Shown here piece by piece: positions 3,514-59,018 of a DNA stretch of 64,000 nt; the stretch's first letter is position 1, and each line of letters starts with the position of its first letter. A model generated the notes under the pieces. It was not told where the DNA came from, searched no databases, and was given only the letters and a program-made list of their open reading frames with translations. This DNA comes from Halichondria panicea (Eukaryota; Porifera; Demospongiae; Suberitida; Halichondriidae). The position numbers and the translations under genes are program-made. Location of the stretch: contig NC_087378.1 of the NCBI RefSeq assembly GCF_963675165.1, positions 7,741,273 through 7,805,272 of the forward strand, written 5' to 3'.

Positions 3514-3660
3514 AAAACGAGCGCAAAAGAGAAAGAGACAAGTTTAATGTCTCTCTTATAACATCTGTTTTGACTCCTGCTCTGAGTTTTTCTCTGGTGG
3601 TGTTTTTACACCATTTGCTGCTTCAGTGCGGAGATGTGGAATCTAATCCAGGACCTGGAA
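3514..3660 (+). other. 2A-like ribosome-skipping exon, unit 1 (DVESNPGP)
   Basis: Phase-1 exon of 147 nt. It has a charged start (ENERKRERDKF), a hydrophobic stretch, then LLLQCGDVESNPGPG. This matches the D-x-E-x-N-P-G-P core at which eukaryotic ribosomes fail to form the Gly-Pro bond and then continue. The intron starts four bases after the final Pro codon. The hydrophobic run just before the core would lie in the ribosome tunnel. Confidence 0.85.
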
Positions 3661-4122
3661 GTAAGTCACAGCTTGTCACTAGTCGACTAATAATTCTTGT
3701 TTGCAGACATTGGATATGAGAGAATGGTTTCTTGTGCTGAGAGGATTATTGAGCGCCTTTCCAGGGACCTCAAAAGAATAGCTACCTCACTGTTGTCTAA
3801 GAGACTGATATCTCACACTTGTATGAGGAGAGCAACAATAAAATTGGGGGAAACTGAAGTGGACAAAGCTAGAAGACTCTACACAACTGTTTTAGATGTT
3901 GTAAAAAATTATCCAGAGAGGTACGATGATTTCGTAGCGATACTTCGAGAGCGTGGAGGAATGTACACGGATCTATTGGAGATGCTTGAAATCAAAGGTA
4001 TATGATCACTGCTCCTCTTATTTATTAATACACTATCTTTTTTATTAGAGAGAAGTGAAGTAACAACTGAAAGTGAACCCATTCGCACTAGGGAGGAAGT
4101 TGTAGCAAAACATCGAAATGCT

Positions 4123-5416
4123 GTAAGTGCATGTGCCAATTAGTCAGTATGTTTGTTATGCCTCGAGGCGCAGCCGCACGAGGCATAACAAACGGTAAAG
4201 CTGACTGTGTGTGTGTGTGTGTGTGTGTCTATTCCAGTTTTAACTACCCAACGGTTACAATGCAACGACAAATAACAACTTCTATATAATTATAGGCTTC
4301 TATAGCCACGTTATCTTGGATTTTTTTCGTGGATTTGCAAACTAAAGCTTCTTCCTCAAGTTATGGCTAGAGTAAAGGCTGTGGCTCTTGCAGTCTCTTC
4401 AAAATCTTTTGTATCTTGTGAGTTAGCCTTGCACTAAAGCGCTAGCTATTTGTTAGCTACAAGAGTCAGAAAAGAACTGCAAAGCTACATGCATGTACAC
4501 TGCCAGAATTATCCCTTGTAAACTAAACTTTGACCTATTTGCAGATTTACCCCTTTTTTTAATTGTTCGTTGACAGGAAATGCATTAAAACTTATACTAC
4601 GTGCTTCTATCCTTCATTGTCACAATTGCAACAAACATTATATACAAATCTCTACTTCTTCTTGAGTGCAGCCATAGATTGAAGAGTTAGAGGGATAGGA
4701 AACGGTTGGTATCTCGAGTATAACATCCGCGCTACGCTGCGGTTTAATCGAGGCCATCACAACAATATCTATTTCTATACTCAGTGCATAATAAACTACA
4801 AGTAACTGTGCTTAGTCCGTGCAACTCACTTATATTTCAAGGTCTATACCTATTGTAGTAGTCATAACCAGCACGCTTACACGTTACATGTTCCAATAGC
4901 TCTAAAACAACATATAACTTTATTGGAAAGTCTCTTTTTACTGGGTGTGGTCAGTCATTACCAAGTACTACACGTGGCTCATGGACTAGGCGTGTTATAA
5001 GTTGCTGAAAGAGATGATGTCTCGAGGAAACACAGCTTTAGGAGTTACCCGGCAAAAATGTGCTTAATAGCCTCGTAACGCGGATAATTTTCGAGGCTCC
5101 ACTGCAGATTCAATGTAAAATCATCACGTGCACCACTCCGTTTCCTATCCCTCTAACTCTTCATCATATCCTGCTATATATGTCATACATTAGTGCTTTG
5201 TAATCTATGCTACCAAAGTGGTGCCAATCTTACAGTTAAGCCTGCATGCAGTGGTTTTATCAATTAATTGGGATACTACTGTACGTATGAGACGAAACGT
5301 GCATTGGACGTTAACACAAGACTTGGATGATTGATGTAGTGACTAACATATCAATGTCTTAGACCTCAGGCCAAACCATTTTATAAATGTTATCTGCTAC
5401 TGTCCCCCCCACACAG
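4123..5416 (+). other. Intron of unit 1 holding repeats
   Basis: This is the long intron between the short acidic exon and the Death exon. It holds a palindromic element around 4155-4190 (TTATGCCTCG ... CGAGGCATAA) followed by a GT run, and the 482-bp inverted-repeat element at 4681-5162. I see no coding exon in it. Confidence 0.6.
4681..5162. mobile_element. MITE-like element with 24-bp terminal inverted repeats
   Basis: The left end GAAGAGTTAGAGGGATAGGA (with AACG following) at 4681-4704 is the exact reverse complement of the right end at 5139-5162. The interior has no open frame. Size (482 bp) and structure fit a non-autonomous DNA transposon. The flanking duplication is unclear (possibly AT). 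Confidence 0.75.
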
Positions 5417-5537
5417 ATGAATCAAAATATACATCAGAGTGATTTGGGACAGGTTTATGAGCATTTGCTTCCTGCTAGGACCGAATGGTACAACTTAGGA
5501 CAGCAAGAAAGATATCACGGCTGGATATATCCCGATT

Positions 5538-6342
5538 GTAATAATAATAATTATTATACTCTTGCTAACATCACACTACTAACAATGTCCTCTATTCTAC
5601 AGCCACTCCCACCCCAGTGCCAAGGAGTTCTGATTGTAATAATAATATACTCTTGCTAACATCACACCACGTACTAACAATGTGCTCTATTCTACAGCCA
5701 CTCCCACCCCGGTGCCATGGAGTTTTACCGATTCTGATGGTAATAATATTATACTCTTGCTAACATCACACCATTAACAATGTGCTCTATTCTACAGCGG
5801 CCACTCCCACTCCCACCCAAGTGCCAAGGAGTTCTGATTGTAATAATATTATACTCTTGCTAACATCACACCACTAACAATGTGCTCTATTCTACAGCCA
5901 CTCCCACCCCAGTGCCAAGGAGTTTTACCGATTCTGATTGTAATAATATTATACTCTTGCTAACATCACACTACTAACAATGTGCTCTATTCTACAGCCA
6001 CTCCCACCCCAGTGCCAAGGAGTTTTACCGATTCTGATTGTAATAATATTATACTCTTGCTAACATCACACTACTAACAATGTGCTCTATTCTACAGCCA
6101 CTCCCACCCCAGTGCCATGGAATTTTTCCGATCTTGATTGTAATAATATTATACTCTTGTTAACATCACACCATTAACAATGTGCTCTATTCTACAGCGG
6201 CCACTCCCACTCCCACCCAAGTGCCAAGGAGTTCTGATTGTAATAATAATATACTCTTGCTAACACCACACCACTAACAATGTGCTCTAGTCTACAGCCA
6301 CTCCCACCTCAGTGCCAAGGAATTTTTTCGATCGCCAACTAT
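5538..6342 (+). repeat. Tandem array of eight in-frame mini-exons
   Basis: A unit of about 100 bp repeats eight times. Each holds an acceptor (TTCTACAG), a short exon and a donor (GTAATAAT). Exons: 5603-5635, 5698-5739, 5798-5839, 5898-5939, 5998-6039, 6098-6139, 6198-6239, 6298-6342. Lengths are 33, 42 or 45 nt, all multiples of three, and all are phase 1 on both sides, so any number can be included or skipped without a frameshift. Each encodes a Pro/Thr-rich segment such as STPTPVPRSFTDSD. The first donor sits inside the Death exon of this unit, which is thereby cut to 40 residues. Confidence 0.8.
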
Positions 6343-10031: not shown

Positions 10032-13000
10032 ATGAGATCCTCAGGAAACAAGTCAGCTGTCACTATTGGTACCCTTGGTGATGATGAACCTCTACCAGAG
10101 CTATCAAAGATATTTCCCAGGCCAAGCTGGCAGCTACAAGCTTGTGTAGTGTCAGTACTGATAAACCCTCTCATGTATCGAGTGTACCAGATACTAGTAA
10201 CCATTGGCTACATCCTCTGTCCTATTGGAACCAGTGGGTCCTTTTCAGCCTCTGCATGTAAGTTACGAATTGATGCAAAGGGTTACTATATTAATTCTGT
10301 GTTTCACACCCAGATGCATCTAACTTTGTGATATGTCCGGTGCCAGTGGTGGATTTGAGCTGGACTGGATTGTTTCCGTGTGATCTGGGGTGGAGGGGAA
10401 GTGCCCTGGTCGTAGCTATTGTATCCGTGGTGTTTCTGGTGTCTTACTTGTTCATCAGAGCTTGTTTGACTCGCTGGAATCCACGGAGGATCATCAAACA
10501 GATAGTAAATTGCACAGTCAAAGGTCAGTTGATTGTTACGTGTTTAGCGAGGCAGCTCTTGTTGCGTTAATGATTTTGTATCGTTTCTATTATAGAAAAC
10601 GAGCGTAAAAGAGAAAGAGACAAGTTTAATCTCTCTCTTGTAACATTTTTTTTGACTCCTGTTCTGAGTTTTTCTCTGGTGGTGTTTTCACATCATTTGC
10701 TGCTTCAGTGCGGAGATGTGGAGTCTAATCCAGGACCTGGAAGTAAGTCACAGCTTGTCACTAGTCGACTAATAATACAATATTCTTGTTTGCAGACATT
10801 GGTTATGAGAGAATGGTTTTTTGTGCTGAGAAGATTGTTGAGGGTCTTTCCAGAGACCCCAGGGGACTGGCTACCTTACTGTTGTCTAGGGGACTGATAT
10901 CTGATGCTGTTGTGAGGGAGACAATAGAATTGAATGAAACTAAAGTGAACAAAGCTAAAAGACTCTTTACAGCTGTTTTAAATGTTGTAAAGCATTATCC
11001 AGAGAGGTACGATAATTTCCTAGCAGTATTTCGAGGGCACGGAGAAGTGTACACGGATCTATTGGAAATGCTTGAAATCAAAGGTATGATCCTTGCTCTT
11101 TCTTAATACAACACTATCAGAATTTATTTTATATTAGAGAGAAGTGAAGCAACAACTGAAAGTGAACCCGTTCGTACTGAGGAGGAAATTGTAGCAAGAC
11201 ATCAACATCATAATGCTGTAAGTGCATGTGCCTGTCAGCTAATTAATTATGTTTGTTATGCCTTGAGGCATAGCCGCATAAGGGATACGGTAAAGTTGAC
11301 TGTGTGTGTGTCTGTCTATTCCAATTGTAACTGCCAATGGTTCAATGCAACGACAAATAACAGGCTTCAAGCTACGTTATCTTGGTTTGTGGATTTGCTA
11401 ACTAAAGCTTCTTTCTCGAGTGAAGGCTGTTGCAGTCTCTTTAGTATAGCATCATCTGTTCGCACAAACTTTCTATTCAACTTATGAGTTAGCCTTGCAC
11501 TAAAGTGCTAGCTGTTTGTTAGCTACAAATAAAGCTGCATGCATGTACACTGCCAGAAGCATCCCTTGTGAACGTTGACCTCTTTGCAGATCTAGGAAAT
11601 ACAATATTAAAACTTCTACATGCTTCTATCCTTGAAGATAGCCATTAGATAGAGTTCTGTTTCCATTTAGCCTCCTTCGCAGGCCTTCAAGAGAGAAAGA
11701 AGGCCTGCTACTGACTGCTTGCGCATGCGCAAAATGATTGGATATTTTTCCCGTAAAATTTACCATAATGAAACTTTACAGAAGATAATATAAATACACA
11801 GACAAAGCTAGAATACAAATTAAAAGTTATACACAGAGCTATAATTATAGCTATAGCTAGCTAGAGACAAAGCTGTAGGTTTGTTGCACAGTCTATATAA
11901 TTATAATTATGTAAATATGTAGACTTTCACCAAGGTTAATATTAGATGGGCGTGGCCTGTCCATATAGGCTAGTAGTGTCAGCTTTCACTCCGTTTAGAC
12001 GATTGTCATCCACACTGTTGCAGGCTGTGAGTCTTTTGTTAACATAGCAGCGTAGCTATCAGAATGCTATCAGATGGGCTAGAAACCTTCAATCGAACAT
12101 TCTATATGCTTCACTTCCGTTCGTTGTAACGTCATTGTTTTACTGACTATAAACGTTGTTATCTGTAGCCGCCAGATACCGGCGGATGGTTAGCGCATGC
12201 GCAAGCAGTCGATACCAGGCCCACTTCCCTGATGATAGTGCGGCCTGGGATCGAGGCTAGTTTCCTCTTCTGTAATGACTGTGGAATCTCAATTTGTTCA
12301 TTGTCAACAATTTAAACAACAAACATTATACAAAGTAAACTAATTATACCTCCTCTCTATAACACTCTAATACTTGAGCGAAGCGAAGCAAAATGCCAAG
12401 AGGCATTAGCACAGCGCAGCTTGAAACTACTTCATTCACTATAGTCTGTAATTACATGATTTAGTGCTTTGTAGTCATATGCGGTGCCAATCTTACAGTT
12501 AAAGCCTGCCTACTGGTTTTATCAATAAAGGGAGTGCTATACTGTACGTATCATGTATATGCATGGTAATATTGGTAATTGATGTAATGACTAAACATGT
12601 CAATGTCCTAGGCCTCAGGCCAAATCATTTCATGAATTTCATCTGCTACTTCCCCCCTTTCAGATGAATGAAAAGATACATCCGAGTGATTTGGAACAAG
12701 TTTATGAGCTATTGTTTCCTGCTAGGTCCAACTGGTACGACTTAGGACGTGCTCTTAAAATAAATACGGACACACTGGATGACATTGAGAAAAACAATCC
12801 AAATAACGTCGAAATTTGCCTCAGGAAAATGCTTAAAATCTGCCTTGATACTAACACGAGTCTCACGTGGTCTGATTTAGAGAACACAAAACTGCACCTG
12901 TTAAAGCCCCCCCCTCAGTTTCTTGTGAGATCAGGTGTGAAGGGGCAGAGCAATATCTTTCTTACATGTTACTTAATATAGGCCATCTAACCAATGTACT

Positions 13001-20488: not shown

Positions 20489-20576
20489 ATGTCTCCTCTC
20501 AATGTCTCTCTGCTGGTTCTGGCATTCTGTGTCCTGCTTCAGTGTGGAGATGTCAAGCCCAATCCAGGACCAACAA
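20489..20576 (+). other. Signal-peptide/2A exon, variant core DVKPNPGP
   Basis: Starts at its own ATG and is 29 codons long. A hydrophobic stretch (LLVLAFCVLL) leads directly to CGDVKPNPGP. The usual Glu of the D-x-E-x-N-P-G-P core is Lys, so skipping strength is uncertain; the NPGP end is intact. Confidence 0.7.
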
Positions 20577-37400: not shown

Positions 37401-39345
37401 GACAATGTCATTTGTAGCCCACAAGTCATTTTCAACAGTATTAGTACGTTGATAATCGAGCCTCTACTGAAGCTTCACAGAAGTGAAGAACGTTTTGTGA
37501 AAAAGCATCACGACAATTGGGAAAAAGGACAGTTTTTACTCGAAACAATTAAAAAATCCCTACCCTCTTCAGGTGATGACTTAACAGTTATTCCTTTGGA
37601 AAACCTCATCATATTTCTGAAACATGTACATCTGATTTCATCCATCGAAGCAAAGGAGGTAAATATACGCGGTGAAACTTCGGTAGTTCGATATTTCATG
37701 CCTGCTATTCTAGATTGTGCTACTCAAGATGAATTGTTAACAGCACCCGTTCCAAATAATGTAACTCCAGTTTCACTGCTCTTGTTCTTCAAGTATGGTT
37801 CAAGTAAAGACGTTGCAGATTCTGTACCAATCGGCCTTTTCTGTGCTATGATTGCTAAGTTAGTTTCGGATGGAGATGAGGATATTTTTGGAGCCGAATG
37901 GAAACTTGTGGATTCACATGTTAAACGAAACATTGTTTCCTTTCATGTTGACGATTATAATCACGTTGTTACATTGGTCTCCCATGCTGGTTGCTATGAG
38001 ATACGCGTTACAAGATCAAAAAATTCACCGATTGATCTGCACGACCTTTGTACTTATGTCTACACAACAATAATGGCTGTGCTGAAAGATCTGAACCATT
38101 TCGTTTGTCCCACCATTGGTTTCATTTGCCCTTGTGGTCAGCACCAAGATTCTACACTTAGAGTTCTCGACAACAGCTGTGTGATTGTAGTCCCAAAGAA
38201 AAAGAAAGAAATGGCCTTCTTCCGGTGCTTGAAAACGGAGGACACCGTCAGTCTTGTCGACCAGCAGTATCATCCCTGGATAACAAAGGTATGTTCATTG
38301 TTCAGAGTTTGGTAATTACTGTCTATTTCTATTTCTGTAGGAAAGTAACGGTAACAGAGAAGTTGTACTAAGAGCATTTCCATTTGAAGAGCCAGATGGT
38401 TTCTCATTCTCATGGTCTGGAAAGGGATCATTAAAGCAGCTCTCCACTACCACCAACGAGCTGTGCATCCAAGCAGCTGAATCAGGCGATTATTACAAGT
38501 GCTGTGTAAGCAAACAAACAAGAAAAGGGGAGACAGCCAGTTTCACTGTACACCACTTCATAAAAACAGGTATGAAATATACTGTTAACTAAATTGTAGA
38601 AGAGTTGCTGGTGCAAATGTTTTTGAGAGACAAACTGTTTTTCTCACACTGCTGTGGCTTTTTTAGTTAATTTGCTAATGTAATTAGTGTGCCTTCTCTT
38701 CCCTTAATGACCTTATGACCTTATGAAGCACCTAACTTAGTATGCTTTCTACTCAGATTGCCATGGATCAAGAAAGCACCAAATGTCTAGTACGATATCT
38801 GATGTCTCAGAGTCAACTGCTGATGGACCTTCCAGACCAAAGAAACAAAAGCTGACTGCTGCTACTGGAACTGAAAAAATGCTCAGTCCAACTGGAGAGG
38901 AAGTCGTAGCAAAACGTGACGATCATAGTCCTGTAAGTTGCCAAGTCAGTCTTATTCTGCGACCATTACACTCCTTCCCTGTGTTGCTGTTGTATACCAT
39001 TATAGTTGGTCTCTGAGTCTCATGCATTAATTACCTTTTCACTCTCAGATGAATCAATGGATATTTTCAACTTCTTATGAAACAGTTCAGGAATTATTGT
39101 GGCCTGCTACGAGCAAATGGTACAACTTGGGAACTGCTCTCAAAGTAGACAGGAACAAACTGGCAAGTATCAAGAAATCCAACCCAAATAACTGCGAGGA
39201 CTGCTTTAATGATATGCTTAAGAGCTGCTCAGAGACGAACACCAGTCTCACTTGGACTGATGTGTGTAAAGCCCTCAGGACATCAACAGTGGCTCGTAAT
39301 GATGTGGCAGAGAAGATTGAGCAATATTTCGTACGAGACGAATAG
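31474..39345 (+). CDS. Gene 4: membrane peptide-2A-CARD-helical domain-ankyrin-Roc/COR-Ig-Death protein
   Basis: Seventeen exons in frame: 31474-31699, 31753-31962, 32048-32194, 32250-32528, 32621-32731, 32784-33367, 33463-33576, 33789-33890, 33943-34041, 34092-34190, 35238-35336, 35399-35494, 35896-35962, 36019-38288, 38341-38569, 38757-38932, 39049-39345; about 1734 aa. The middle Death domain is replaced by a Ser/Pro-rich linker (SSPPTSLVSRST) and a helical domain of about 195 residues, unnamed here (VNALHRHNVTIIKRYFVDF; NCELLYEIVETYGDN). The acceptor before 33463 (CATGATAG) is weak but keeps phase 0. In the last exon the family WSG is WTD. An upstream in-frame ATG (31408) lies in the conserved leader; 31474 matches genes 2 and 3. 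Confidence 0.82.
32048..32194 (+). other. 2A-like ribosome-skipping exon, gene 4 (DVESNPGP)
   Basis: 147-nt phase-1 exon ending LLLQCGDVESNPGPG before GTGAGT. Codon use differs from other copies at GPG (GGACCAGG instead of GGACCTGG) but the peptide is unchanged. Confidence 0.88.
32784..33367 (+). other. Unnamed helical domain exon of gene 4
   Basis: About 195 residues, mainly helical. Recurring features shared with unit 5 (40375 on), unit 5b (45218 on) and, more distantly, gene 7 (57609-58294): an N-terminal NALR/NALH start, AILTYLVNSLDYNNCELLYE, ETYGDND-MRKSMKEYKQH, a KRQSKEYR basic patch and LSYFGLPKVGVILDSI. I do not recognise a named family. It occupies the slot of the Death domain in gene 2. 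Confidence 0.6.
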
Positions 39346-39727: not shown

Positions 39728-42467
39728 AGATATCTATGTGCTTATTGCATGTTGTCTGTTTGTATGATAGATGCAGGATATGAAGCAATGGTTGACTGTG
39801 CAGAAGAACTTGTGAGCTCCCTATCTACAGATCCAAAAGGATTTGCTATCTCTTTGTTTAGCAAGCGATTGATATCTCCTCACGTACTTGAGCAGACAAA
39901 TGAGCTGAATGAAACTAACACTGAAAAGGCAGGAAGACCGTACACTGAAGTATTGAAAATAGTGCAGCGATGTCTTGAAGAATATAAGACCTTTGTTGGT
40001 AGACTTGAAGACCGAAAACATTGTAATGATATCGTTCAAAAACTTGGCCAAAAATACGCTCTTCACGGTAGGTCGGCCATTAATTCCAGCACAGTTAGTG
40101 TGGTAATCTCATTGTGGTACTCATCTTTCCAGTAGAGGAAGATGCCAGACGGAGAGAAGTTATTCCCCATGAAAGTGAAAATGGTGGTGCTATTGTTAGA
40201 AGTGATTCTCTCGCTACATCAGTCTTTAGCTCCCCACCCACTAGTCCAATGTCCCTCGCTTCTTCACTATCCTCTTCACTAACTGGAACTATATCTATGA
40301 GGTCTAGTGAGGAAAAAGGTAAGGATATTTTTGATATTAAACATTGTATACATGTTGTTAACTCTCATTTTCAGTATTGAATGCTCTTCGCAAGAGTAAC
40401 TTGGTCAGTATGGAGCAATATTTCTCTGACTTCACTGCTAGGATTGCAAAACGTTTTACAGAAGATACTAGTACTCACAATATTGAGAAATAAGAAATGC
40501 TTTGAAATTCCATTATGGAGAAATGCCCCATAAAGATATTTGGGGTATTTTTAAGTATTTGATCGATAAGCAATACTGGGACTGCTTTAATAATTATGAG
40601 CATCTTTTATATCTAATTGATACATATGGCAATGGTGTCATGAAAAAAGAGAAAGAATTAAGGATTTCTAAATAGGAAAGAATCATTTTCGGTTGCAACT
40701 GAACTTCGAGAATATTTATCAGAAAAAAGACATCTACTTTCTTAAAATCTAGAAAATAAAGGACGACCAGCTACTAAACGTCGAAGAAGCAGTAAAGAAT
40801 ATCGTGACAAATTAGGAGTGAAATTAAACATGAACATAAGCGGAAAAACACTAAAATACATTGAGAACCTGTGGTCGAGATTATCATACTTGGGTTTGCC
40901 TAAGATTGGGGTAATTCTGGACAGTATCATTGATGGATCTATTCATATCTTTTGGACCATACTTCTTCCAATCATTGCTCTAAATTTTCGAAAGAAGGCT
41001 ACGCAGCCTGGAGCAGCTGAGTTTTTTAAGAAGAATAGAATTGTTCAAGTAACCCTAAATGATGATTGCATTTATTAAGCTGAAGATTTAACTCCTTCAA
41101 TTACAAATAAGCTGCCAACATCGGAATCTATTGAAGAAGAGCCAGCTGAGCTGAGTGGATCAGAGGACGAGCCGGGTGAAACACAGGATGATGAAACTGT
41201 AATAGTCGAACAATCTCTTGAGGAGGAGGAGTCTACAGTGAATGATGTAGCTGATGAAGTGAAGAGCAAAAAAAAGGATTCTGTAGAAAAAGACATCAGT
41301 GATGAGCCTGTGAAAAGTGAACCACCCGCTAAAGAAAAGAGTACTGGCATTGTGAGTGTCCTGATTATTGTGTATTAATTCCATCAACTTGTCTTTAAAT
41401 TTCCTTTAGCTGTCTACATGGGCTAGAAAATTCAAAGAAAAACGCCTTTTTAAAAAGAAGGTAAGATGTATTTAATTAAGAACTTTTTTGCATCTCATAT
41501 GTATATTGACAGACAATCTCGGATAAGTTACTGGCAGAATGTCGCAGTAAAAAAGCTGACATTGAAGTGGTGAGAGGCTACCTGGAGAGAGAAGACTGTG
41601 ACGTCAATATCAGGGAAAATGATGACGTATGTAATAATATTATGGTGTTTGCCTCTATACTATAATGGCCCTTGACTTTAGTTCAAGTGGAGTCCATTGA
41701 TGTGGGCTTGCAAGAACAAACACTTTGAGATAGGGAGGCTACTCCTGAAGTACCACCCTCAAGTTCATATTCAGGACAAGGTGTGTAGAAAACAAAATAA
41801 CGTAGCTAGGTGGTATTGTGTATGTGTGTACAGAGAGGGTGGTCTCCATTGGTGATGGCCAGTAGAGCAGGAGACCTGGAAATAGTGCAGGGAATAGTGG
41901 CACTGGGAGCAGAGATTGACCTGCCCACAAAATGTGAGTGAGACAATTTTGTGTTGATAACTAATTGATGTGTGTGCAACAGTTAAAATGGACTCCTCTG
42001 ATGTGGGCTGCTTAAGAGGGTCATGCAAAGATGGCTACATTTCTACTGGAGAAGGGAGCCTGATGAGGTATGAATAGTCAAACACCACTGTCTCCCCTAT
42101 AGCTATCTTATTGTCTGTCACACAGAATGGGTGGACTCCAGTCATGCAAGCCAGTCAGGAAGGTCATGTGGACGTGATCAATATCCTGCTGACCACAACG
42201 CTAAAGTCAACCATCAGACTGAAGTAAGACCACCTAATACTAGCTGTAGCTAACTATACACAATTACTTTCAGACAACCTGGTGTGCTCTGATGGCGGCT
42301 GCTAAGAACATGCACAGTGATGCGGTGGACACACTTCTATAAAGAGAGGAGCTCAAGTGGACATACAGAGAGATGTGAGGATCAGAGAAAATTACCTACT
42401 CATAACGTAATTTCTTGTACCCTTTACAGGATGGATCCACCACACTGCATGTTGCAGTTTTCACTGC

Positions 42468-46642: not shown

Positions 46643-46925
46643 ACCCTGATGACAAACTCTATGTATAGTTTAAATTGTTCTGTGACGAGTTACTAACTCT
46701 ATAATTACTGACTGTATAGTTAGCGTCCTTTTCATATGTAGATCTCAATAGCATTTTAATAGCTGCAGTAATTTAATGTGCCAATAATTTAATTAAAGTA
46801 GATTATTGTTCTTCTTGTGTGATGTTTTTATCTTTATAAGTTTATTCATAATTATAATCTTGTCTTGTGACACAGTATTTACTTGAATGGGCGTTGCAAA
46901 CTAGATCTAGTTACATATTAATTAA
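46643..46925. other. Intergenic spacer before gene 6
   Basis: AT-rich; no eS8 fragment here, unlike the spacers before genes 2, 3, 4 and 7. No gene seen. The usual conserved leader before exon 1 is mostly replaced. Confidence 0.5.
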
Positions 46926-49900
46926 ATGTCTAAAGAAAGTATGCATATGATGTCCTCTGGAAACAAGTCAGCTGTCACTATTGGTACTCTTGGTGATGAT
47001 GAACCTCTACCAGAGCTATCAAAGATATTTCCCAGGCCAAGCTGGCAGCTACAAGCTTGTGTAGTGTCAGTACTGATAAACCCTCTCATGTATCGAGTGT
47101 ACCAGATACTAGTAACCATTGGCTACATCCTCTGTCCTATTGGAACCAGTGGGTCCTTTTCAACCTCTGCATGTAAGTTACGAATTGATGCAAAGGGTTA
47201 CTATTAATTCTGTGTTTCGAACCCAGATGCATCTAACTTTGTGATATGTCCGGTGCCAGTGGTGGATTTGAGCTGGACTGGATTGTTTCCGTGTAATCTG
47301 GGGTGGAGGGGAAGTGCCCTGGTCGTAGCTATTGTATCCGTGGTGTTTCTGGTGTCTTACTTGTTCATCAGAGCTTGCTTGACTCGCTGGAATCCACGGA
47401 GGATCATCAAACAGATAGTAAATTGCACAGTCAAAGGTCAGTTGATTGTTACGTGTTTAGCGAGGCCGCTCTTGTTGTGTTAATGATTTGTATCTTTCCT
47501 GTTATAGAAAACGAGCGTAAAAGAGAAAGAGACAAGTTTGATGTCTCTCTTATAACATCTATTTTGACTCCTGCTCTGAGTTTTTCTCTGGTGGTGTTTT
47601 CACACCATTTGCTGCTTCAGTGCGGAGATGTGGAGTCTAATCCAGGACCTGGAAGTGAGTCACAGCTTGTCACTAGTCGACTAATAATACATTGTTTGCA
47701 GACATTGGATATGAGAGAATGGTTTCTTGCGCTGAGAAGATTGTTGAGGGCCTTTCTAGAGATCCCAGGGGACTGGCTACCTCACTGTCGGCTAGGGGAC
47801 TTATATCTGACACTATTATGATGGAGACATTGATACCTAAAGTGGACAAAGCTAGAAGACTCTTTACAACTGTTTTAGAGGCTGTTAAGCTTCATCCAGG
47901 GAGGTACGATGATTTCTTAGAGATACTTCGAGAGCATGGAGTGTACACGGATCTATTGGAAATGCTTGAAATCAAAGGTGTGATCACTACTCTTTCTTAA
48001 TATTATACCAGAATTTATTTATATTAGAGAAAGGTGAAGCAACAACTGAAAGTGAACCTGTTCCTTCTGAGGAGGAAGTTGTAGCTAGACGTCAACATCT
48101 TAATGCTGTAAGTGTGCCATGTACAGTGCTTATTCTTTTGGTCACCATTGTCCTTAGCTGCATCATACTATGCTATAATAATACATAGTCTGTATCAGAC
48201 ACATAATAATAGGTATATGCATGGTTTTGGAAAATGCCCTTATACTAAATGGGGCACCTAACTGTATGAGACCAAATGTGGACGTTACAAGGCAAGGTAA
48301 TAATGTAGTAACTAACAAGTCAATGTCCTCAGGCCAAACCATTTCATCTGCTACTGTCCCTCCCTTCAGATGAATAAAAAGATACATCAGAGTGATTTGA
48401 AACAAGTTTATGAGCTATTGCTTCCTGCTAGGACCATCTGGTTCAGCTTAGGAATTGCTCTCGGACTAAGCTCAAGCACACTGGCTGGCATTAAGGAAAA
48501 CAATGTATTTAAACCTGATAAGTGCCTCATGAAGATGCTTGAGATCATCCTTGATACTAACACCAGTCTCACTTGGTCTGGTTTGTGTGAAGCCGTTAGG
48601 ACACCATCAGTGGATCATAATGATGTGGCAGAAAGTATTGAAGCAATGATTCGTACAAAACAAAAAAGTCCAATCCTTCGTAACGATGGAAATTCTGAGG
48701 AAGGACTGAAAAGTGAGAGTGATGCTTATGGAAAAAACCATGTGTTGTAGTCTCTCCTCCCTCTCCCATTGTGTACCGAGGGGCATATAAATATCCTCCT
48801 AACACATCACATTACATGTTAATGGCTAACATTTTTCCATTCCATACAGTCCCTCCAGCTCAGCTTCCAGAACCAGAGTCCTCCCCAGAATACAACACGA
48901 TGTTGACTATCTCGGAGAAGTTGCTGGCAGAATGTCGCAGTGAGACAGCTGACATTGAAGTGGTGAGAGGCTACCTGGAGCAAGAAAACTGTGACGTCAA
49001 TATCAGGGATAATCATTGGGTATGTAATATGGTGCATGGCTATACTTGCGAGGTATACGGTAGTGTGTTTGTGTGTGTGTGTGCTATAATAGCTAGTAGT
49101 AGCTTTATGTTATGTAGCTTTGACACCTCCACCGATGCATCAGCACCCGCGGTGCTTTCATTTGTATAATGGCTCTTGTACTGTAGTTCCATGGCCAGTG
49201 GAGTCCATTGATGTGGGCTCTTGAGAACAAACACTTTGGTATTGCTAAACTGCTCCTGCAATACAAGCCTCAAGTTCGTATTCAGGACACGGTAATCCTC
49301 TTACTATAATGGCAGTGTACATGTAACATTGTGTGTGTACAGGTAGGGTGGTCTCCGTTGGTGATGGCCAGTAGAGCAGGAGACCTGGAGATAGTGCAGG
49401 GAATAGTGGCACTGGGAGCAGAGATTAACCTGCCCCAAAATGTGAGTGAGACATTACCTGCATTGTGTGTTATGGTAGTAACTGTCTAACAGAAAAAATG
49501 GACTCCTCTGATGTGGGCTGCTCTAGAGGGTCATGCAGAGGTGGCTAGATTTCTACTGGAGAAGGGAGCATTTGTGGATTTCCCTAATGAGGTATGAACA
49601 ACTCTTTTTATTATACCTCGGTGCGCACGCGCAAGTGAGGTATACGGTAGTGTGTTTGTATGTGTGTGTGTGTGTGTGTGTGCGTATGTAGACTGCTACA
49701 GCTGCTCAATGATCAATGAAGTGTAAAGAGTTATATAGGCTTCCATAGTCATGTGTTCTTGGATTTTAATTCTTCATTCTCCAGTTATGCCTAGTTTTGC
49801 TTACTTGGAATGCCATTGCAGTTTTTTCAGAAGAGTGCGTAGTAAAACTTGTTTTTGGAGTGTTGCTACTCTACTTAGTAGTTAGCTCTGCACTAGAACG

Positions 49901-52900
49901 CTAGCAGTGAGAAGAGAGCTGCAATGCTCTACTGTACTGACGCAGCAGGCATTAATTTTTGACTTTGTACTTTGACAATCATGATTGATCATTTCCCACT
50001 TTTGTTTCCCTGTGATTAGCCTGATACAAACATCCACCGAGGCATCAGCACCTGCGGCGCTTTTATTTTTCCTATAGATACATTCATACTGATAGTACCG
50101 TATAGGGCGAAATTTTCGCTGATTTCATGGTTAGCAATCCTACACGAAAATTAAGTCCACGAAGATTGTTCATTAATTAGAATTATCTGCTATAACGTGC
50201 AAAAGATTAAAGGCGTGGCTTCTGGTAAACAGTCATTCCACGAACATTGTGCAACAAAAAAGGCTTCCACGAAATATATGTGCCTCGAAAATTTTGCGCT
50301 ATTATGGTATACAACGAAGTGTAACTGATGTTAAAGTTCAGTTTAGCGGAAATTGATCTTTGTGGCAGCTACATAGGTCCCCAATATGACTACCGTATAG
50401 AGGTTATTTCTAGGGGGCAAAATATTCGTGGAGGCCAAGTAATATTTAGCCATTTTGTGAATAATTATTATTTTCGTGGTTGCTGCTTGCACTGCAGGAA
50501 AGGTAGGAAGGTCGCTTCATTTGTGGGTAAAATATTCGAGATTCAACCTTAAATATTTTAATTGTCCCCCTCTCCGAAAATTACCCGCTATATCAAACAC
50601 CACTATCCCATCCCTATAGCTATTTTATTGTCTACCACACAGTATGGGTACACTCCAATCATGCAAGCCAGTCAGGAAGGTCATGTGGATGTGGTGAATA
50701 TCTTACTAAAGTATGGTGCAAAGGCTAATCATAAAAGCAATGTAAGGAGACTATAATAATTCAGAATGACTTGTGTATCATCTCAGACTTATGAATTGCA
50801 GCATGGGATGACTGCTCTATCTTTGGCTACCAGAGACAACCACCCCGATGTAGTGAAGGTTCTTGAAAGTCCCATGGTCCGTGACGAGCGAGTACAAGCT
50901 GTATGCGTTTGTTCCAATATTAATTTTACCTGAGTGGGAGGGAGTGGGGCAGGTTTTAAGGGTCCTCCCCCGGAAAGATTTTTGAGGAATAGTTATCTGA
51001 TGTGCAATTTGGGTTTTTTGTGCTTCAAACCATAGTCTAGTTCGAGATTGTAGACATTTTTAAGAAAAATCATATATTTTTATTATGACATCATTAATTT
51101 TCAGATTTCTAGGGGGGGGAATTTTGGCTGGGGATGGGAAATCCCAGGCCCCCCCCCCACCTGTATGAAACCCTGTGGGGTCTTGCATTTCCTACATGTA
51201 CGAGCACAATAATTTATGTATATCTGTATGATGTAATGATGTAATGTTGTACTAATTGCATGCAGGATATTGCAAACACCAATGTTGATGAAAGCCATTC
51301 CAACGACAGTGGTGATGAAGACTCAGAACAAGGTAATCACATTTCAATAGTAATTTTGAAAATCAGCTGAGTTTCAATACTGTTTTCTAATGCAGACAAA
51401 TATCTTCAAAGATTCAACGAGCTTATGGAAGACACAGAACAAATTGATATGCAATATTTGAAACTGTACCTCATTGGTCTCCCGGGTGTTGGCAAAACTA
51501 CTTTTCGAAAGCGTTTAACTAAATCCCTTGTCAACATATCATCTTTACCTCTGGAGGACAGACAAAATTATAGCACTCATTTAGCAGAATGCATACAAAC
51601 ACTTTGCATACTTCAAGACGAAGAACATTTTGATGTAGAAATTTCTAAAAGCCTGGATGATGAAATGAAAGCAATTTTCAAATACTTGCTGGGAAATACA
51701 GAAATGAAGGAACCTGCTCCCACTGACTCTGACTCCACTCAGGCAATTCACTCTGAAGGTCCTCTTGATTCAAATACCAGTCAGGAATATGAAGGATCAT
51801 CAACTCTGCTCGATTCCAGTCCAGTTGGTGAATCTAACAAAACAACAGAACCAACTGAAAAAGACGAAACTAAATCAAATCTTACCAGTGTGTTGGCAGA
51901 GATCAGAGGAGTTGTTGCTTCTGGAAACTATGCAGACTTTATTTTAAGACACAAGATTCTGCTCAATATTATTGATATCGGTGGACAGCCTGGATTTTTG
52001 GAGATGCTTCCCTTCATATGTGGTGGTCCTGGAATATTTTTTGTTTTTTTCCCTTTAGACAAAGAATTTGATGAACGATACCAAATATGCTATCAGCGTG
52101 ATGAGGATAGAATAACACCATACGAAGCAAACTATTCGATTCGAGAGACTATTGCCCAAATATTGTCTGGAATTAGCTACCACACATCTGAAATATTGCC
52201 CATAAACGACAAGTACAAACAATTTACAAGTGTTAAACCAACTATCACACTCATTGGTACTTTTAAAGATGAGCTTGAGCGTCAAATGGAAAAAGAGATC
52301 AAAGACACCATGCAACAGCAAGTAAGCTGTTCTGAGGTGGTACAGCAACAAACCACAGTTTCTGAGCAAGTGGCAACAAAAACAAGACAAAGATTAGAAG
52401 AGCTGCACAAATCGGTGAAGGAAACTACTTCAAAATCATATTTTAGTGATTTCGTAGTCCCAGCAAATGCACGTGAAAATAAAATATTCTTTGAAGTTGA
52501 CAACTATGAAGGGAGTGATAAGGATCTTGAACCAATTAGAGCTCATATTCGCAGCTGTCTTCGAGACAATAAGGGATCCATGAAAGTTCCCATTCGACCT
52601 GTTCAGCTATTGTTCAGTATCATTCTTAGAAAAGAGTACCAGATTGTGAAGCTGGAAGATTGTATGAAGATTGGCAACGAGTTGAATATGGATGAGGATA
52701 CTGTAGATTTTACTCTTTGGTATTTCAACCAGTTAGGAACTATTATTTATCGACCAGAGATTGGTGGATGGTTTAAGGAAAATGTCATTTGTAGCCCACA
52801 AGTCATCTTCAACAGTATTAGTACGTTGATAATCGAGCCTCTACTGAAGCTTCACAGATGTGAAGAATGTTTTGCGGGAAAACATCATGACAATTGGATA

Positions 52901-54718
52901 CAAAAAGGACAGTTTTTACTTAAAGCAATTGAAAAATCCCTACCCTCTTCTGGTGATGACTCAAAAGTTATTCCTTTAGAAAAACTTATCATATTTCTGG
53001 AACATGTACATCTGATTTCGCCTATCAAAGCAAAGGAGGTGTCTATACGCAGTGAAACTTCGGTAGTTCGATATTTCATGCCTGCTATTCTAGATTGTGC
53101 TACTCAAGAGGAATTGTTGACTGCACCCGTTCCAAATAATGATACTCCAGTTTCACTGCTCTTGTTCTTCAAGTATGGTTCAAGTAAAGACGTTGCAGAT
53201 TCTGTACCTATTGGCCTTTTCTGTGCAATGATTGCTAAGTTAGTTTCGGATGGAGATGAGGATATTTTTGGAGCCGAATGGGAACTTGTGGATTCACATG
53301 TTAAACGAAACATTGTTTCCTTTCATGTTGACGATTATAATCACATCGTTACATTGGTCTCCCATGCTAGTTGCTATGAGATACGCGTTACAAGATCAGG
53401 ATTACAGGATCAGGATGCACCGATCGATCTGCACGATCTTTGTACTTATGTCTACACAACAATAATGGCTGTGCTGAAAGATCTGAACCATTTCGTTTGT
53501 CCCACCATTGGTTTTATTTGCCCTTGTGGTCAGCACCAAGATACAAAATTCCGAGTACTCGACAACAGCTGTGTGATTGTAGTCCCAAAGAGAGATTCGC
53601 CCTTCTTCCGGTGCTTGAAAGCAAAGAAAAACTTCAGTCTTGTCAATCAACAGTATTATCATCCCTGGATAACAAAGGTACGTTCATTGTTCAAAGTTTG
53701 GTAATTACTGTCTATTTCTATTTCTGTAGAAAACTAACGGCAACAGAGAAGTTGTACTAAAAGTATTTCCACTTGATGACCCAGATGGTTTCTCATTCTC
53801 GTGGTCTGGAAAGGGATCACTAAAGCAGCTCTTCACTACCACTAACGAGCTGTGTATCCAAGCAACTGAATCAGGCGATTATTACAAGTGCTGTGTAAGC
53901 AAACAAACAACAAAAGGGGAGACAGCCAGTTTCACTGTACACCACTTCATCACAACAGGTATTAACTAAATTGTAGAAGAGTTGCCGGTGCAAATGTTTT
54001 TGAGAGACAAACTGTTTTTCTCACACTGCTGTGGCTTTTTTTAGTTAATTTGCTAATACAATTAGTGTGCCTTAATTCTCTTCCCTTAATGACCTTATGA
54101 CCTTATAAAGCACCTAACTTAGTATGAGTCTTTCTACTCAGATTGCCATGGATCAAGAAAGCACCAAATGTCTAGTACGATATCTGATGTCTCAGAGTCA
54201 ACTGCTGATGGACCTTCCAGACCAAAGAAGCAAAAGCTGACTGCTGCTACTGGAACTGAAAATAAGCTCAGTCCTACTGGGGAGGAAGTCGTAGCAAAAC
54301 GTGATGGTCATAGTCCTGTAAGTTACTAAGTCAGTCTTATTCTGCGACCATTACATCTCCTTCGCTATGTTACTGTTGTATGTCATTGTCTCTGAGTCTC
54401 ATCCATTATTAACCTTTTCACTCTCAGATGAATCAATGGATATTTTCAAATTATGAAATAGCTCATGATCTATTGTGGCCTGCTAGGAGCGAATGGTACA
54501 ACTTGGGAATTGCTCTGGAAGTAGACCCAAACACACTGAAAAGTATCCAGAAAACCCACCGAAGTAACTGCGATGACTGCTTCAATGATATGCTTAAGAG
54601 TTGCTCAGAGACAAACCGCAGTCTCACTTGGTCTGGTGTGTGTAAAGCCCTTAAGAAACCATCAGTGGCTCGTAATGATGTGGCAGAAAGTATTGAAGCA
54701 TTTGTACGAAACGAATAA
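46926..54718 (+). CDS. Gene 6: 2A-CARD-Death-ankyrin-Roc/COR-Ig-Death gene with a lost splice donor
   Basis: Exons: 46926-47172 (MSKESMHMMSSGNKS; ATGs at 46926 and 46947-46952), 47227-47436, 47508-47654 (2A), 47702-47977 (CARD), 48028-48107, 48370-48730 (Death), 48850-49019, 49187-49291, 49343-49441, 49493-49591, 50643-50741, 50802-50900, 51266-51332, 51396-53677 (Roc/COR), 53730-53958 (Ig), 54142-54317, 54428-54718 (Death). All are open and in phase. However, the donor after the Death exon, ATG|GTAAAA in gene 3, is ATGGAAAAA here. Without it translation runs to TAG at 48748-48750, giving a short 2A-CARD-Death protein. No nearby GT restores phase 1. It is either a truncated allele or an assembly/sequence error; the 3' exons show no decay, which hints at recent change. 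Confidence 0.7.
47508..47654 (+). other. 2A-like ribosome-skipping exon, gene 6 (DVESNPGP)
   Basis: 147-nt phase-1 exon ending LLLQCGDVESNPGPG before GTGAGT; in frame with the membrane exons upstream and the CARD downstream. Confidence 0.88.
51396..53677 (+). other. Roc-like GTPase plus COR exon of gene 6
   Basis: Same length (2282 nt) and motifs as gene 2 (GLPGVGKTT, IIDIGGQPGF, LIGTFKDEL). The middle part follows gene 2 (FAGKHHDNWIQKGQF, LEHVHLISPIKAKEV) while the distal part follows gene 3 (GLQDQDAPIDL, RCLKAKKNFSL). It is therefore a mosaic of the two. Confidence 0.8.
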
Positions 54719-54974
54719 TACCGCGATAAACTAAAAGAAACTTTATAGAGGAACTTTTATGGTAGAGACAGCTGTTTAAAATACGGCTCAACACAAGAAC
54801 TTTATGCTAGGATTTTTACGTTAGCTACATGTACATGTAGCTAACATGATTATAATTAATAATTTTGTGTATGGCATGCAATGAATCTCATTAAATATTA
54901 AATGAGGAAGTGGTTTAATTCTGAGCTAATAAACCAGCTAATTCTGTGGGGGCCAAAGTGAGGCGTAGAGTCGA

Positions 54975-55335
54975 ATGTCTCCTCTCAATGTCTCTGCTGG
55001 TTCTGGCATTCTGTTTGCTGCTTCAGTGTGGAGATGTCAAGCCCAATCCAGGACCAACAAGTAAGATATAAGTTGTGCATACAGTATGAGACTCTCTGTT
55101 TCCATTGATAGATCCTGGGTATAAAGTAATGCTTTTTTGTGGAGAAGAGATCTAGATTGTGGAAGGTCTCTCCAGAAATCTGAAAGCTATAGCTCTACCA
55201 TTGCTTGCTAAAGACTGGATGTATATGAGGAGACAATCGAGCTAAACGAAACTAAAGATAAAAGCGTGAAGACTCCACCTAAAAGTGTTGAAACTAGTGC
55301 AGCAATCTCCAAAAATAGTGTTAAAAAACCAATTA
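54975..55335 (+). pseudogene. Remnant of signal-2A-CARD gene after gene 6
   Basis: The first exon lost two bases (GTCTCTGCTGG instead of GTCTCTCTGCTGG). From the usual ATG (54975) the frame is destroyed. A second ATG at 54988 falls into the correct frame and gives MSLLVLAFCLLLQCG then DVKPNPGPT. The CARD block (from 55112) has stops, as after genes 2 and 3. Confidence 0.6.
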
Positions 55336-56304
55336 GCATGATGGAAATTCGAAGCATCGAGCAATGCGTTTGTACAATGGCAACTACTCCAGGGGCTCTG
55401 AAGGTACTTAGTATGTATGTATAGTCTACCACATTGAGTTGATCTTCTGCTTTTACTTGCTCAGCTATATCGAGAAAATGTCGTGTCGTCTACAATGCCA
55501 GCAACAACGAGCAAGACTCTAGTCAAGAACTGTATAGTGTTGATCGACTGCACTCGCTTCAAACAATGGTAAGCTCCTTTATACGAGAATCTATTGAACT
55601 GAGCAAACCAACTAATATTTGCTTTTTGAACTCTTGGTTCAGTGATTGATTGTATACCCTGACTTCTGTTGCGTAGATTTGAGGCACATTATTGGATTCC
55701 TCTAGGCCGCAAGAAGTCAAAGAAGACAGAGGTAAGAAAATTGTCGTGCACTAGTCATTAATTTAAAATGTCTGATTGATATTAGACCATTATTTTATGT
55801 GTTACAGTAAAAATTGTTTTGTAGGAATCGATTGAAGATTATGTGTTATCTGTTAAGAAGTCCAACCACGTTCAGAAGAAGCTTGCTGCCAGGAAATCCA
55901 CCTCCAAGATTGACCCACACGTAGAGGAGCAGTTCCTCACTGGAAGACTTCTAGGTGAGTAGTGTACGTTGCCTCCCTTGAGTGTAAACACTGTCTTTAG
56001 TATGTATCTGTGTTGGCTTTTTACCACAATTTAGAGAAAGGGGGTGAGCTTTTGTTGAATGGTTCTTTAAAACTGTTGTCCTTTTCTAGCTGTGACAACA
56101 TGTTACGTACGTTAGAAATACAGTTTAGTATAGTGTAGTAGTATCCAACCAACTATCCATTATCATAGATTATGTGTGTGTCCACTGTTTGCAGCGTGTG
56201 TGTCATCTCGACCAGGGCAGAGTGGCCGGTGTGATGGGTACATTCTAGAAGGCAAGGAGCTCGAGTTCTATCAGAGAAAACTCAAGTCCAAGAAGGGAAA
56301 ATAA
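55336..56304 (+). pseudogene. RPS8: Ribosomal protein S8 (eS8) fragment, copy 4
   Basis: Blocks: about 55340-55402, 55477-55567, 55678-55731, 55825-55953 and 56195-56304. The last two are well kept ([39 protein letters not shown] to KSKKGK, TAA). The second lost bases around CGTGTCGTC and GAGCAAGAC, and the splice join to the third gives TGA. The 5' part is not recognisable as eS8. Non-functional. Confidence 0.85.
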
Positions 56305-56460
56305 ACTCTATCATGAAACTGTTTTCATTATGTCATCTTGTAATTTTCCTGATGTTGACATATATAAGTTTATTCATGAACGGGTGGTCTTGTGACATTG
56401 AATGGCCGTTGTAAACAATGCTCAGTACAGAGTTATAGATAAGTTGGAAAGAAGCGCAGC

Positions 56461-59018
56461 ATGAGGTCCTCAGGAAAGAAGTCAGCTGTCAATATTGGTA
56501 CCCTTGGTGATGATGAACCTCCACCAGAGCTATCAAAAAGTAATCCACGGAGGATCATCAAACAGATAGTAAATTGCCCCAAAGGTAGGTTGATTGTGTT
56601 TAGCTTATAAGGATTATTTTTTTGCATCAGTGAGTGATTATTTAAACTCAGACAAAGTAGCTATACGGCTATACGTACTTTATGAAGTAGCCCGCCCGTT
56701 AGCCTCGAGACCAGCCGTTTGTTATCTGAAAGAACGCCTGGTCAAGTTCCAATGTAGCACTCGTCCAGCGGTCCAGGAATTTCTTGGACCGGTAATTGCC
56801 TGCTCAAGGTGTATTACCCGTGAATATCATTATTCATGATGCTATAAAACGCTGACTCAGCTGGACGAGTGCTACATTGGAACTTGACCAGGCGTTCTTT
56901 CAGATAACGAACGGCTGGTCTTGAGGCTACCCGCCCGTATGGTGACAACTATTCGTTATAAAGTAATTGCATTACCAATTTTGTATCTTTCCTGTTATAG
57001 AAAATGAGCGTAAAAGAGAAAGAGACAAGTTTGATGTCTCTCTTATAACATTTTTTTTGACTCCTGCTCTGAGTTTTTCTCTGGTGGTGTTTTTACACCA
57101 TTTGCTGCTTCAGTGCGGAGATGTGGAGTCTAATCCAGGACCTGGAAGTGAGTCACAGCTTGTCACTAGCCGACTAATAATACAATCATGTCTTGTTTGC
57201 AGACACTGGATATAAGAGAATGGTTTCTTGTGCTGAGAGGATTGTTGAGGGCCTTTCCAGAGATCCCAACGGAATAGCTATATCACTGTTTTCTGGGAGA
57301 CTTATATCTGATGCTCTTATGAGAGCAACAATGGAATTGAGTCAAACTAAAGTGGACAAAGCTAGAAGACTCTACACAACTGTTTTAGATGTTGTAAAGC
57401 ATTATCCAGAGAGGTACGATAATTTCCTAGCAGTATTTCGAGAGCATGGAGGAATGTACACGGATCTGTTGGAATTGCTTGAAATCGAAGGTATGCTTGT
57501 GAATGTTCTCTCTGATGATTTGTATATCACATATTAATTGTGTAAGTTAGTGTGAATAGTATAATTATGTAATCTATTAATTTTACATCACTCAACTTTC
57601 CCACATAGCTACTGAAAACCGTGTTCCCGAGGATACCATTTTGGACATAGCTACTGAAAACCGTGTTCCCAAGAATACCATTTCTAAGGTGAAACGCATC
57701 AACACTAAACAAATCAAGGATCAATGGGATGAGCTTCTTTGGGTAGTGAACGAAAGGCTAGACTCGAAATTGAAACGTGTTGTGATCACGTTAAAGCGGA
57801 AGCATTCTTACTGTTTTGAGAAACTTTGTCCAGAAATTGGGTCGGTTGAAAAGATTTTCTACAACTTATCAAAGCTTAAATTGTGTCGCTATCGTAAATG
57901 GAATATACTTCAAGACATAATCACAGCTGTAGATAAAGATAGCTGTGAGCTATTGCACACATACGAACTCAAATATCACGGCTTTAAAGCTGTAAACAAG
58001 ATTGCAGACAGACTGTGTTGCGTTGATCTCGAATTTGCGTACTCAGAATCTACCGATGAAGAAATGATGTTAACAAATGAAATTTCTTTCAAACTTGCCA
58101 AAAATCTAAAATTGACTAAACGGATAGATAATCCAACTTCAATTCGTTACATTAAAGAGGTGTGGAGAGAATGTAAAAGAAAATGCTACGTTCCATCTCT
58201 AAGAGTTATGACGGATTTCATACTTCAGTTCAAGACTGCTCCTAATCGTCAAAGCATCACTCTAGTTGCTCAAACCCCACCTGTGACCCTTGAGGTAATG
58301 AGAAGTTACTCTGTATACATAAATCTTTGCATGTGAAGTAAAACATTGTAAGGCCTTAAAAGAGCTTTGTATTGCACTGCATATGATCCTCAATAACATT
58401 GTACTGTGTGTTTCTGTTAGGGAGTCTCCCTGTCTACTATTGGACAAACTGTTACTCAGTCAACTCCCAAGCCGGTGATGTGTCATGAGTCGCCAGTGCC
58501 AGAGGACCAGGAACGGTCAACATGTATCAGATCTACACTGGTAGGCCTAAATCATTATTGCAAAAAATGTAACACTACTATTTCTGCAGCTGTCTTCCTC
58601 TGTTGGCCATACCATAAAGCTCATCAGACTCAAGGTTATTAACAAACATAATAATAATACTTGTAGCCATAATTATAACTTACACATACAGACTATCTCG
58701 GAGAAGTTGCTGGCAGAATGTCGCAGTGAGACAGCTGACATTGAAGTGGTGAGAGGCTACCTGGAGCAAGAAGACTGTGACGTCAATATCAGGGAAAATG
58801 ATGACGTATGTAATATAGTGTATGGCTATACTTGTTTTTAATGGCTCTTGCACTGTAGCTCCAGTGGAGTCCATTGATGTGGGCTCTTGAGCACAAACAC
58901 TTTACAATAGCCAAACTACTTTTGAAGTACAAACCTCAAGTTAATATTCAAGACAAGGTAATTTTAAATTGTACACTGTAGGTGGCAGTGTACAATTTAA
59001 CATTGTGTGTGTGTGTGT

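Follow-up and report, generated by a model that had tools for sequence, protein, structure and literature searches.

We analyzed a 64,000-nucleotide (nt) stretch of the genome of the sponge Halichondria panicea (NC_087378.1, positions 7,741,273 to 7,805,272, forward strand; hereafter the window, with positions counted from its first letter), which carries a tandem family of genes for predicted sensor proteins with CARD, ankyrin, Roc-COR, Ig-like, and Death parts. Each of six gene copies includes an exon that encodes a 2A peptide, also called StopGo, ahead of the CARD. A motif scan of the window located DVESNPGP in frame six times on the plus strand, at positions 3633, 10715, 22703, 32167, 47627, and 57120. 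These motifs lie in exons of 147 nt that share a TAG acceptor, a strong donor (GGAA/GT(A/G)AGT, with the slash marking the exon end), and phase 1 at both ends, and all six in-frame signals of the original prediction were recovered where it had placed them. Every copy holds the StopGo core (D/G/C/N)(V/I)ExNPGP and the upstream hexapeptide LLLQCG, and a frame check of the window found the coding frames open on both flanks of the 2A exon.

3514 to 3660, plus strand: 2A/StopGo exon of copy 1, 147 nt, phase 1-1, ending ...LLLQCGDVESNPGPG
10596 to 10742, plus strand: 2A/StopGo exon of copy 2, from motif scan, splice sites, and frame
22584 to 22730, plus strand: 2A/StopGo exon of copy 3, picked by the exon-chaining model and present in public protein P0121
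32048 to 32194, plus strand: 2A/StopGo exon of copy 4, picked by the exon-chaining model
47508 to 47654, plus strand: 2A/StopGo exon of copy 5, with the peptide of public protein P0122
57001 to 57147, plus strand: 2A/StopGo exon of copy 6, without a membrane exon of its own upstream

Upstream of five of the six 2A exons lies a membrane exon of 210 nt, here termed M2, and other sequence occupies that place in copy 6. For copy 3, a leader exon with the start codon, M1, was also placed, because residues 1 to 75 of P0121 correspond to window positions 22012 to 22236 at 100% identity; the last base of M1 completes, by reading, a codon across the junction.

22012 to 22237, plus strand: leader exon M1 of copy 3, with the start Met (MRSSG...) and the first of the hydrophobic segments, a weaker one
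3218 to 3427, plus strand: membrane exon M2 of copy 1, 210 nt
10314 to 10523, plus strand: membrane exon M2 of copy 2, from M2 homology and frame
22291 to 22500, plus strand: membrane exon M2 of copy 3, 68% identical over 50 amino acids (aa) to the M2 query of the C14 family
31753 to 31962, plus strand: membrane exon M2 of copy 4, from M2 homology and frame
47227 to 47436, plus strand: membrane exon M2 of copy 5, from M2 homology and frame

The leader of P0121 maps to copy 3, and the Gly of its 2A is residue 192, in agreement with the leader peptide of 192 aa that had been proposed. Kyte-Doolittle analysis places hydrophobic segments of this leader at about residues 105 to 123 and 158 to 182, together with a weaker stretch at about 40 to 65 that exceeds the threshold in C14 relatives and falls below it in P0121. 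The last hydrophobic segment is preceded by the basic sequence NERKRERDK and ends close to the 2A. Among nine H. panicea proteins measured, the 2A Gly is residue 105 to 214, with one or two earlier hydrophobic segments.

Downstream, an open CARD exon begins 46 to 55 nt after the 2A exon in all six copies. The claim that the 2A sits between a membrane-type leader, in five copies, and a CARD is thus borne out, and the six-helix CARD fold is supported by a structure model of the copy 3 exon (predicted local distance difference test score, pLDDT, 94.6).

3707 to 3996, plus strand: CARD exon of copy 1, its end being that of the homologous stretch
10796 to 11082, plus strand: CARD exon of copy 2, its end set in the same way
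22786 to 23072, plus strand: CARD exon of copy 3, fold model matching CARDs such as that of Apaf-1
32250 to 32527, plus strand: CARD exon of copy 4, its end being that of the homologous stretch
47702 to 47976, plus strand: CARD exon of copy 5, its end set in the same way
57203 to 57489, plus strand: CARD exon of copy 6, its end set in the same way

We employed an exon-chaining script, with results for copies 3 and 4, and the resulting models retain the 2A exon in both. A protein database was then queried with the copy 3 model, to which M2 had been added and which was scored on residues 1 to 420. This query returned nine proteins, all from H. panicea, and in each of them the 2A core lies at residues 176 to 208 and is joined to a membrane leader and to either a CARD (P0121 and P0122) or a Death-type sensor (P0123 to P0129). 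Two of these, P0124 and P0128 of the C14 family, have Pfam matches to NACHT. A query with a model of the C5 family gave H. panicea P0130 and P0131, each with leader, 2A, and sensor, as well as P0132 and P0133, which are considered below. All 11 H. panicea gene models obtained with these queries join the 2A to both flanks; because both queries held leader and 2A, and all the proteins are predicted, the count reports the joins and not their frequency.

Two of the public models combine exons of different copies. P0121 (window 22012 to 39345) consists of copy 3 exons with a C-terminus as in the copy 4 model, and P0122 (window 46900 to 61975) carries the copy 5 2A peptide with the copy 6 CARD. Such splicing across tandem copies may be real, or it may be a mapping artifact of near-identical copies.

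The arrangement is not confined to the window. The pattern D(V/I)ExNPGP, which in its degenerate form also admits Met at the V/I position, has 116 matches in the 131-Mb genome, of which 110 lie outside the window, and the reversed pattern has none; a chance origin of the 2A motifs was rejected on the basis of these reversed controls. Flanking sequence was read at 77 of the 116 sites, namely all 75 that lie off contig C14 and two of the 41 on it. By reading, the 116 sites fall into a C14 type (45 sites), a C5 type with a WRARIG leader and DVES or DIES (19), the window family (11), a set with DVEL or DVEI ahead of a Death exon (11), a C13/C15 group (four), two sites each on C7 and C1, nine sites whose exon combines LLIIAG or LLILAG with a Death-like start that the Death profile missed, and eight that resemble retrotransposons. 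At the five remaining sites (G000, C6:3064858, C11:4571341, C16:2730885, C16:2740084, and C17:4085157), for most of which little flanking sequence was fetched, the 2A lies in an open frame in which neither a Death exon nor retrotransposon features were recognized.

Searches for the parts that follow the 2A gave a consistent orientation. A C14 Death query matched on the same strand, no more than 1.5 kb downstream, at 58 or more of the 116 sites (median distance 122 nt), a lower bound because 150 of the 582 candidates were scored, and among these there was no match upstream on the same strand or on the opposite strand. Death and CARD profiles, the former built partly from the same loci and hence not an independent test, found a downstream exon at 46 of the 77 fetched sites, with 15 others too short to tell and no match on the opposite strand at any of the 77. 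With both searches united, a Death or CARD exon lies downstream of at least 87 of the 116 2A sites, and none of the eight retrotransposon-like sites is among these 87. Death-like exons were also read at both C13/C15 sites that were followed; for one of these (L075) the Pfam Death match is below the cut-off (E 0.0012), and for the other Pfam gave nothing. The original observation thus holds for the six-copy family, and its interpretation needs amending in scope, as copy 6 lacks its own leader and the 2A feature is genome-wide, being present also in Death-NACHT and Death-ankyrin receptors.

A genome scan with a 54-aa piece of the C14-family M2 revealed 47 places, and at all 47 a 2A lies 165 to 240 nt downstream on the same strand; two of these 2As read NVEANPGP and are outside the 116 pattern matches. 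Conversely, M2 is present within 400 nt upstream of the 2A at 38 of 45 C14-type sites and seven of 11 C2 sites. Between the Roc-COR family of the window and the C14 receptors, whose sensors are of the NACHT or GTPase type, M2 is 68% identical over 50 aa. The M2 leader thus goes with the 2A across different sensors, and its similarity where the sensors differ is what one would predict for a leader that is itself a distinct protein.

We examined conservation of the core by scans that allowed up to three mismatches and did not require the motif, so that more diverged copies were missed, and some sites are shared between scans. The motif is kept at all 50 sites of the C14 scan, as (D/N)(V/I)ExNPGP with N at p12 in two, at 11 of 11 sites of the window scan, at 17 of 17 of the DVELNPGP scan, and at 20 of 24 of the C5 scan. 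The four C5-family cores with a broken NPGP (G000:C5:2649105, 2702930, 2710034, and 3029295) are a natural decayed set for comparison. Core substitutions thus mostly keep the motif, although of 69 single-base changes to the C14 core no more than 24 would leave it intact. In the full 2A exon, compared over eight C2 copies, synonymous changes number eight on 34.3 sites and non-synonymous changes 11 on 109.7 sites; the last 15 codons show two synonymous changes and one non-synonymous change, a C to R substitution two residues before the core D in L010. The leucine-rich hexapeptide ending in (A/S/C)G is present at 73 of the 77 fetched sites, and the other four have LLLSGG (two), LLLQRG, and LLLVCR.

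The window contains four further 2A-like exons that read DVKPNPGP, with Lys replacing the core Glu and an ATG at 20489, 30017, 39563, and 54988.

20489 to 20576, plus strand: Met-initiated degenerate 2A exon with DVKPNPGP, the genome holding eight such motifs, four of them in the window

All eight DVKPNPGP motifs of the genome belong to this cluster, those beyond the window being at G000:C2:7821275, 7835639, 7845357, and 7860244. These exons are probably dead for StopGo because Lys at that position is not among the active forms in the available text of PMC12846837. They were also considered as true first exons of the window genes, an idea that was not supported, given that P0121 and P0122 start elsewhere. 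Downstream of the motif at 39563 there is an open CARD-like exon (39776 to 40021), and those at 20489 and 54988 are followed by a partial or stop-containing CARD copy.

For the remainder of the sensor, the exons of copy 3 are as follows.

26527 to 28806, plus strand: Roc-COR GTPase exon, with an LRRK2/Roco-like fold
28860 to 29076, plus strand: Ig-like exon from the exon-chaining model, by sequence reading only
29445 to 29735, plus strand: C-terminal Death-like exon from the exon-chaining model, with a Pfam Death match of only 0.089

The tandem Roc-COR arrangement that defines Roco proteins is predicted here with support from the fold. The proposed series of CARD, ankyrin, Roc-COR, Ig, and Death parts holds for CARD, ankyrin, Roc-COR, and the C-terminal Death part; the Ig part has no Pfam match in the open reading frames (ORFs) of the window or in the public proteins. 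Single-exon Pfam searches told nothing useful about the leader, the CARD, or the first Death exon, and a PDB search by sequence was likewise uninformative for Roc-COR. P0121, which belongs to the window family, has Roc-COR and, in Pfam, neither a NACHT nor a kinase match. Long open frames after copy 4 (32762 to 33523) and copy 6 (57581 to 58336) represent other domains with no significant Pfam match, and the latter is included in P0122. Two tandem repeats also lie in the window: about 122 copies of the 9-nt unit CAGACTCTC at 1798 to 2895, upstream of copy 1, and nearly eight copies of a unit of about 100 nt at 5545 to 6326, which by reading holds the acceptor-like TTCTACAG.

The leader of the C5 type points to a connection with mobile elements. 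A genome scan for WRARIG gave 35 matches, against six in the reversed control; of the 35, 29 have an intact listed 2A no more than 600 nt downstream, three have a broken one, and three have none. Outside the sponge, P0132 starts with MGICIELWRARIGSF and P0133 with MISLDLWRARIGLF, hydrophobic segments follow in both, and the leaders end in GVESNPGP and DVESNPGP, respectively. Compared with the sponge leader P0130, these proteins give E values of 3e-12 and 8e-11 when only seven leaders are compared and only 0.02 and 0.13 in the full database search. P0132 has a weak PHD match in Pfam. P0133 presumably resembles ORF1 of a long interspersed nuclear element (LINE), without a domain match in support: Pfam gave nothing telling, a PDB sequence search was uninformative, and viral contigs scanned with this protein yielded five pattern matches, none of them a relative. 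In the sponge genome itself, L034 and L035 are open frames with 2A, PHD, and endonuclease (two of two tested, Pfam). The WRARIG leader likely shares its origin with mobile elements, to judge from sequence, the direction not being fixed. No such mobile-element link was found for the SWTG leader, which the window and C14 families share. Neither P0121 nor P0122 has a Pfam match to a retrotransposon endonuclease or reverse transcriptase, and we accordingly rejected the window family as a retrotransposon body.

From the sequence, the reading frames, the exon structure, the public gene models, the genome-wide association, and the conservation of the core, we consider it probable that one mRNA gives rise to a membrane leader and, split from it by StopGo, a cytosolic death-fold sensor. 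The mRNA would encode a short membrane leader, the StopGo/2A exon, and a CARD-ankyrin-Roc-COR-Ig-like-Death sensor. At ...HHLLLQCGDVESNPG, the leucine-rich segment and the core would block the next peptide bond, such that a leader of about 192 aa ending in NPG would be released, and translation would resume from Pro to yield a separate sensor starting PGNIGYERM. The leader would go to the membrane while the sensor would remain cytosolic, the two in a roughly fixed ratio, and the same device would serve several receptor families of this sponge. Skipping, the two separate products, their localization, and the role of the leader are the parts of this proposal that we infer. In the available text of PMC12846837, the core is given as (D/G/C/N)(V/I)ExNPGP, leucine-rich motifs ending in (A/S/C)G go with D at p12 and S at p15, and leucine-rich motif 6 is active in lysate. 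By analogy, the sponge 2A exons are likely to have StopGo activity.

Several observations weigh against a uniform split of this kind. M2 was not found within 400 nt at four of the 11 C2 and seven of the 45 C14-type sites, and the exon-chaining model dropped M2 in copies 3 and 4 and the CARD exon in copy 4. The H. panicea Roc-COR proteins P0091 and P0094, which were found by a Roc-COR query, have no 2A. The core is broken at four of 24 sites of the C5 scan, with copies of more than three mismatches unseen, and the cluster holds eight DVKPNPGP copies, a form missing from the published active set. Paralogs are moreover not independent tests of core conservation, and since StopGo can be only partly efficient, some fused product is likely.

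The fate of such fused product bears on the first alternative, in which incomplete 2A efficiency and a signal-sequence role of the hydrophobic segment divide the sensor between the exocytic pathway or membrane and the cytosol, as in sea-urchin NLRs. According to the portion of PMC4981915 available, SpNLR2A6 is about 80% active in vitro, the unskipped product enters the exocytic pathway, and an inactive mutant goes to the Golgi; in the sponge, too, the hydrophobic segment ends just before the core. An unskipped sponge sensor might likewise be translocated across the membrane rather than tethered, because its last segment follows the basic NERKRERDK and the positive-inside rule would put its C-terminus outside the cytosol. 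The suggestion that any unskipped fraction is membrane-tethered is doubtful for the same reason. However, the sponge leader has 105 to 214 aa with earlier hydrophobic segments, not a 26-aa N-terminal sequence, and the conserved M2 exon argues for a role of the upstream product itself, so we hold dual targeting of this kind to be possible and rather unlikely.

A second alternative makes splicing the switch, with inclusion of the 147-nt exon giving the split and its omission giving a leader-CARD fusion that faces the cytosol and lacks the last hydrophobic segment. Omission of this phase 1-1 exon preserves the frame and would join the CARD to the basic tail after M2; the resulting junction is open in all five copies with M2. 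Exon skipping is thus possible as a second means of deciding whether the sensor is split or tethered, and as a simpler route to tethering. As the switch in place of StopGo we consider it improbable: no 2A-less isoform is among the 11 H. panicea proteins, a count to be read with the fact that the queries held 2A and most cluster members were not displayed. Poorer still is the prospect that the receptors are simply membrane-bound, the 2A being an inactive relic and the leader a plain anchor. The reading of sponge NLRs as membrane-bound in PMC12909245, as far as its available text goes, would fit, as would the decayed DVKPNPGP and C5 cores, but a relic should lose NPGP, whereas most copies keep the required core residues and the leucine-rich context. 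That the motifs are retrotransposon remnants or spurious exons rather than parts of host genes is hardly credible and, for the window family, largely refuted, because the eight retrotransposon-like sites, with Pfam endonuclease and PHD in both that were tested, have to be set against the conservation of splice sites and phase, the tandem arrangement of the copies, the public gene models, and the Death or CARD exons downstream of 87 of 116 sites.

Returning to the split of leader and sensor by StopGo, the receptor families involved, if it is correct, have differing sensors: CARD-ankyrin-Roc-COR, Death-NACHT, Death-GTPase, and Death-ankyrin. The available text of PMC12846837 describes StopGo as a viral device that is rare in cellular genes. 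With a 2A before a Death or CARD part at 87 or more places and ahead of varied sensors, ribosome skipping would become a general route to two-part receptors. We see an even balance of evidence for the broader proposition that StopGo is a routine component of innate immunity in this sponge, by which about 100 genes would each yield two proteins, that at least one leader may have been captured from a mobile element, and that the "membrane-bound NLRs" reported in sponges may largely be split. The capture is suggested because the leader of WRARIG, membrane segment, and 2A likely shares its origin with retrotransposon leaders. These findings could change the interpretation of transmembrane segments in sponge NLRs, and they open to direct testing the question of mobile elements as a source of translation signals for immune genes.

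The pairing of a 2A with a CARD-ankyrin-Roc-COR protein had been called undescribed, and in the open-licence literature we found neither a description of it nor a prior report of 2A in sponge receptors. NLRs with 2A are already known from the sea urchin, though not, as far as these searches go, with the layout seen in the sponge receptors. The NLRs of the sponges Amphimedon queenslandica and D. avara likewise have predicted transmembrane segments and differ in being read in print as membrane-bound: the available text of PMC12909245 reports such segments in D. avara, suggests membrane-bound NLRs with a citation of A. queenslandica, and names H. panicea as having the largest NLR expansion relative to genome span, and its main text does not contain "2A peptide," "StopGo," or "NPGP."

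A close counterpart is SpNLR2A of Strongylocentrotus purpuratus, for which the comparison draws on the available part of PMC4981915. Both systems place a 2A core in immune receptors before a Death-type sensor, with a hydrophobic run preceding the core. They differ in that SpNLR2A is represented by 14 tabulated 26-aa N-terminal signal-like sequences, with some sea-urchin 2As counted "within the N-terminal region," whereas the sponge 2A follows a leader of 105 to 214 aa that has a conserved exon of its own, and unlike SpNLR2A this 2A occurs in Roc-COR and ankyrin receptors besides NACHT ones. The accessible portion of PMC11512398 places 2A in retrotransposons and in some NLRs.

With the Roco proteins (LRRK1/2 and bacterial Roco), the window family has the Roc-COR fold in common; it differs by its CARD, ankyrin, Ig-like, and Death parts and its putatively 2A-split leader, and by the lack of a kinase match in P0121. 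The 2A sequences of non-LTR (long terminal repeat) retrotransposons include those reportedly described by Odon in 2013 and that of L1Tc. These elements resemble the sponge receptors in the core and the leucine-rich context, and the WRARIG leader is common to two retrotransposon-like proteins, but what follows the 2A is a Death or CARD sensor in the sponge receptors and PHD/endonuclease or coiled-coil parts in the retrotransposons.

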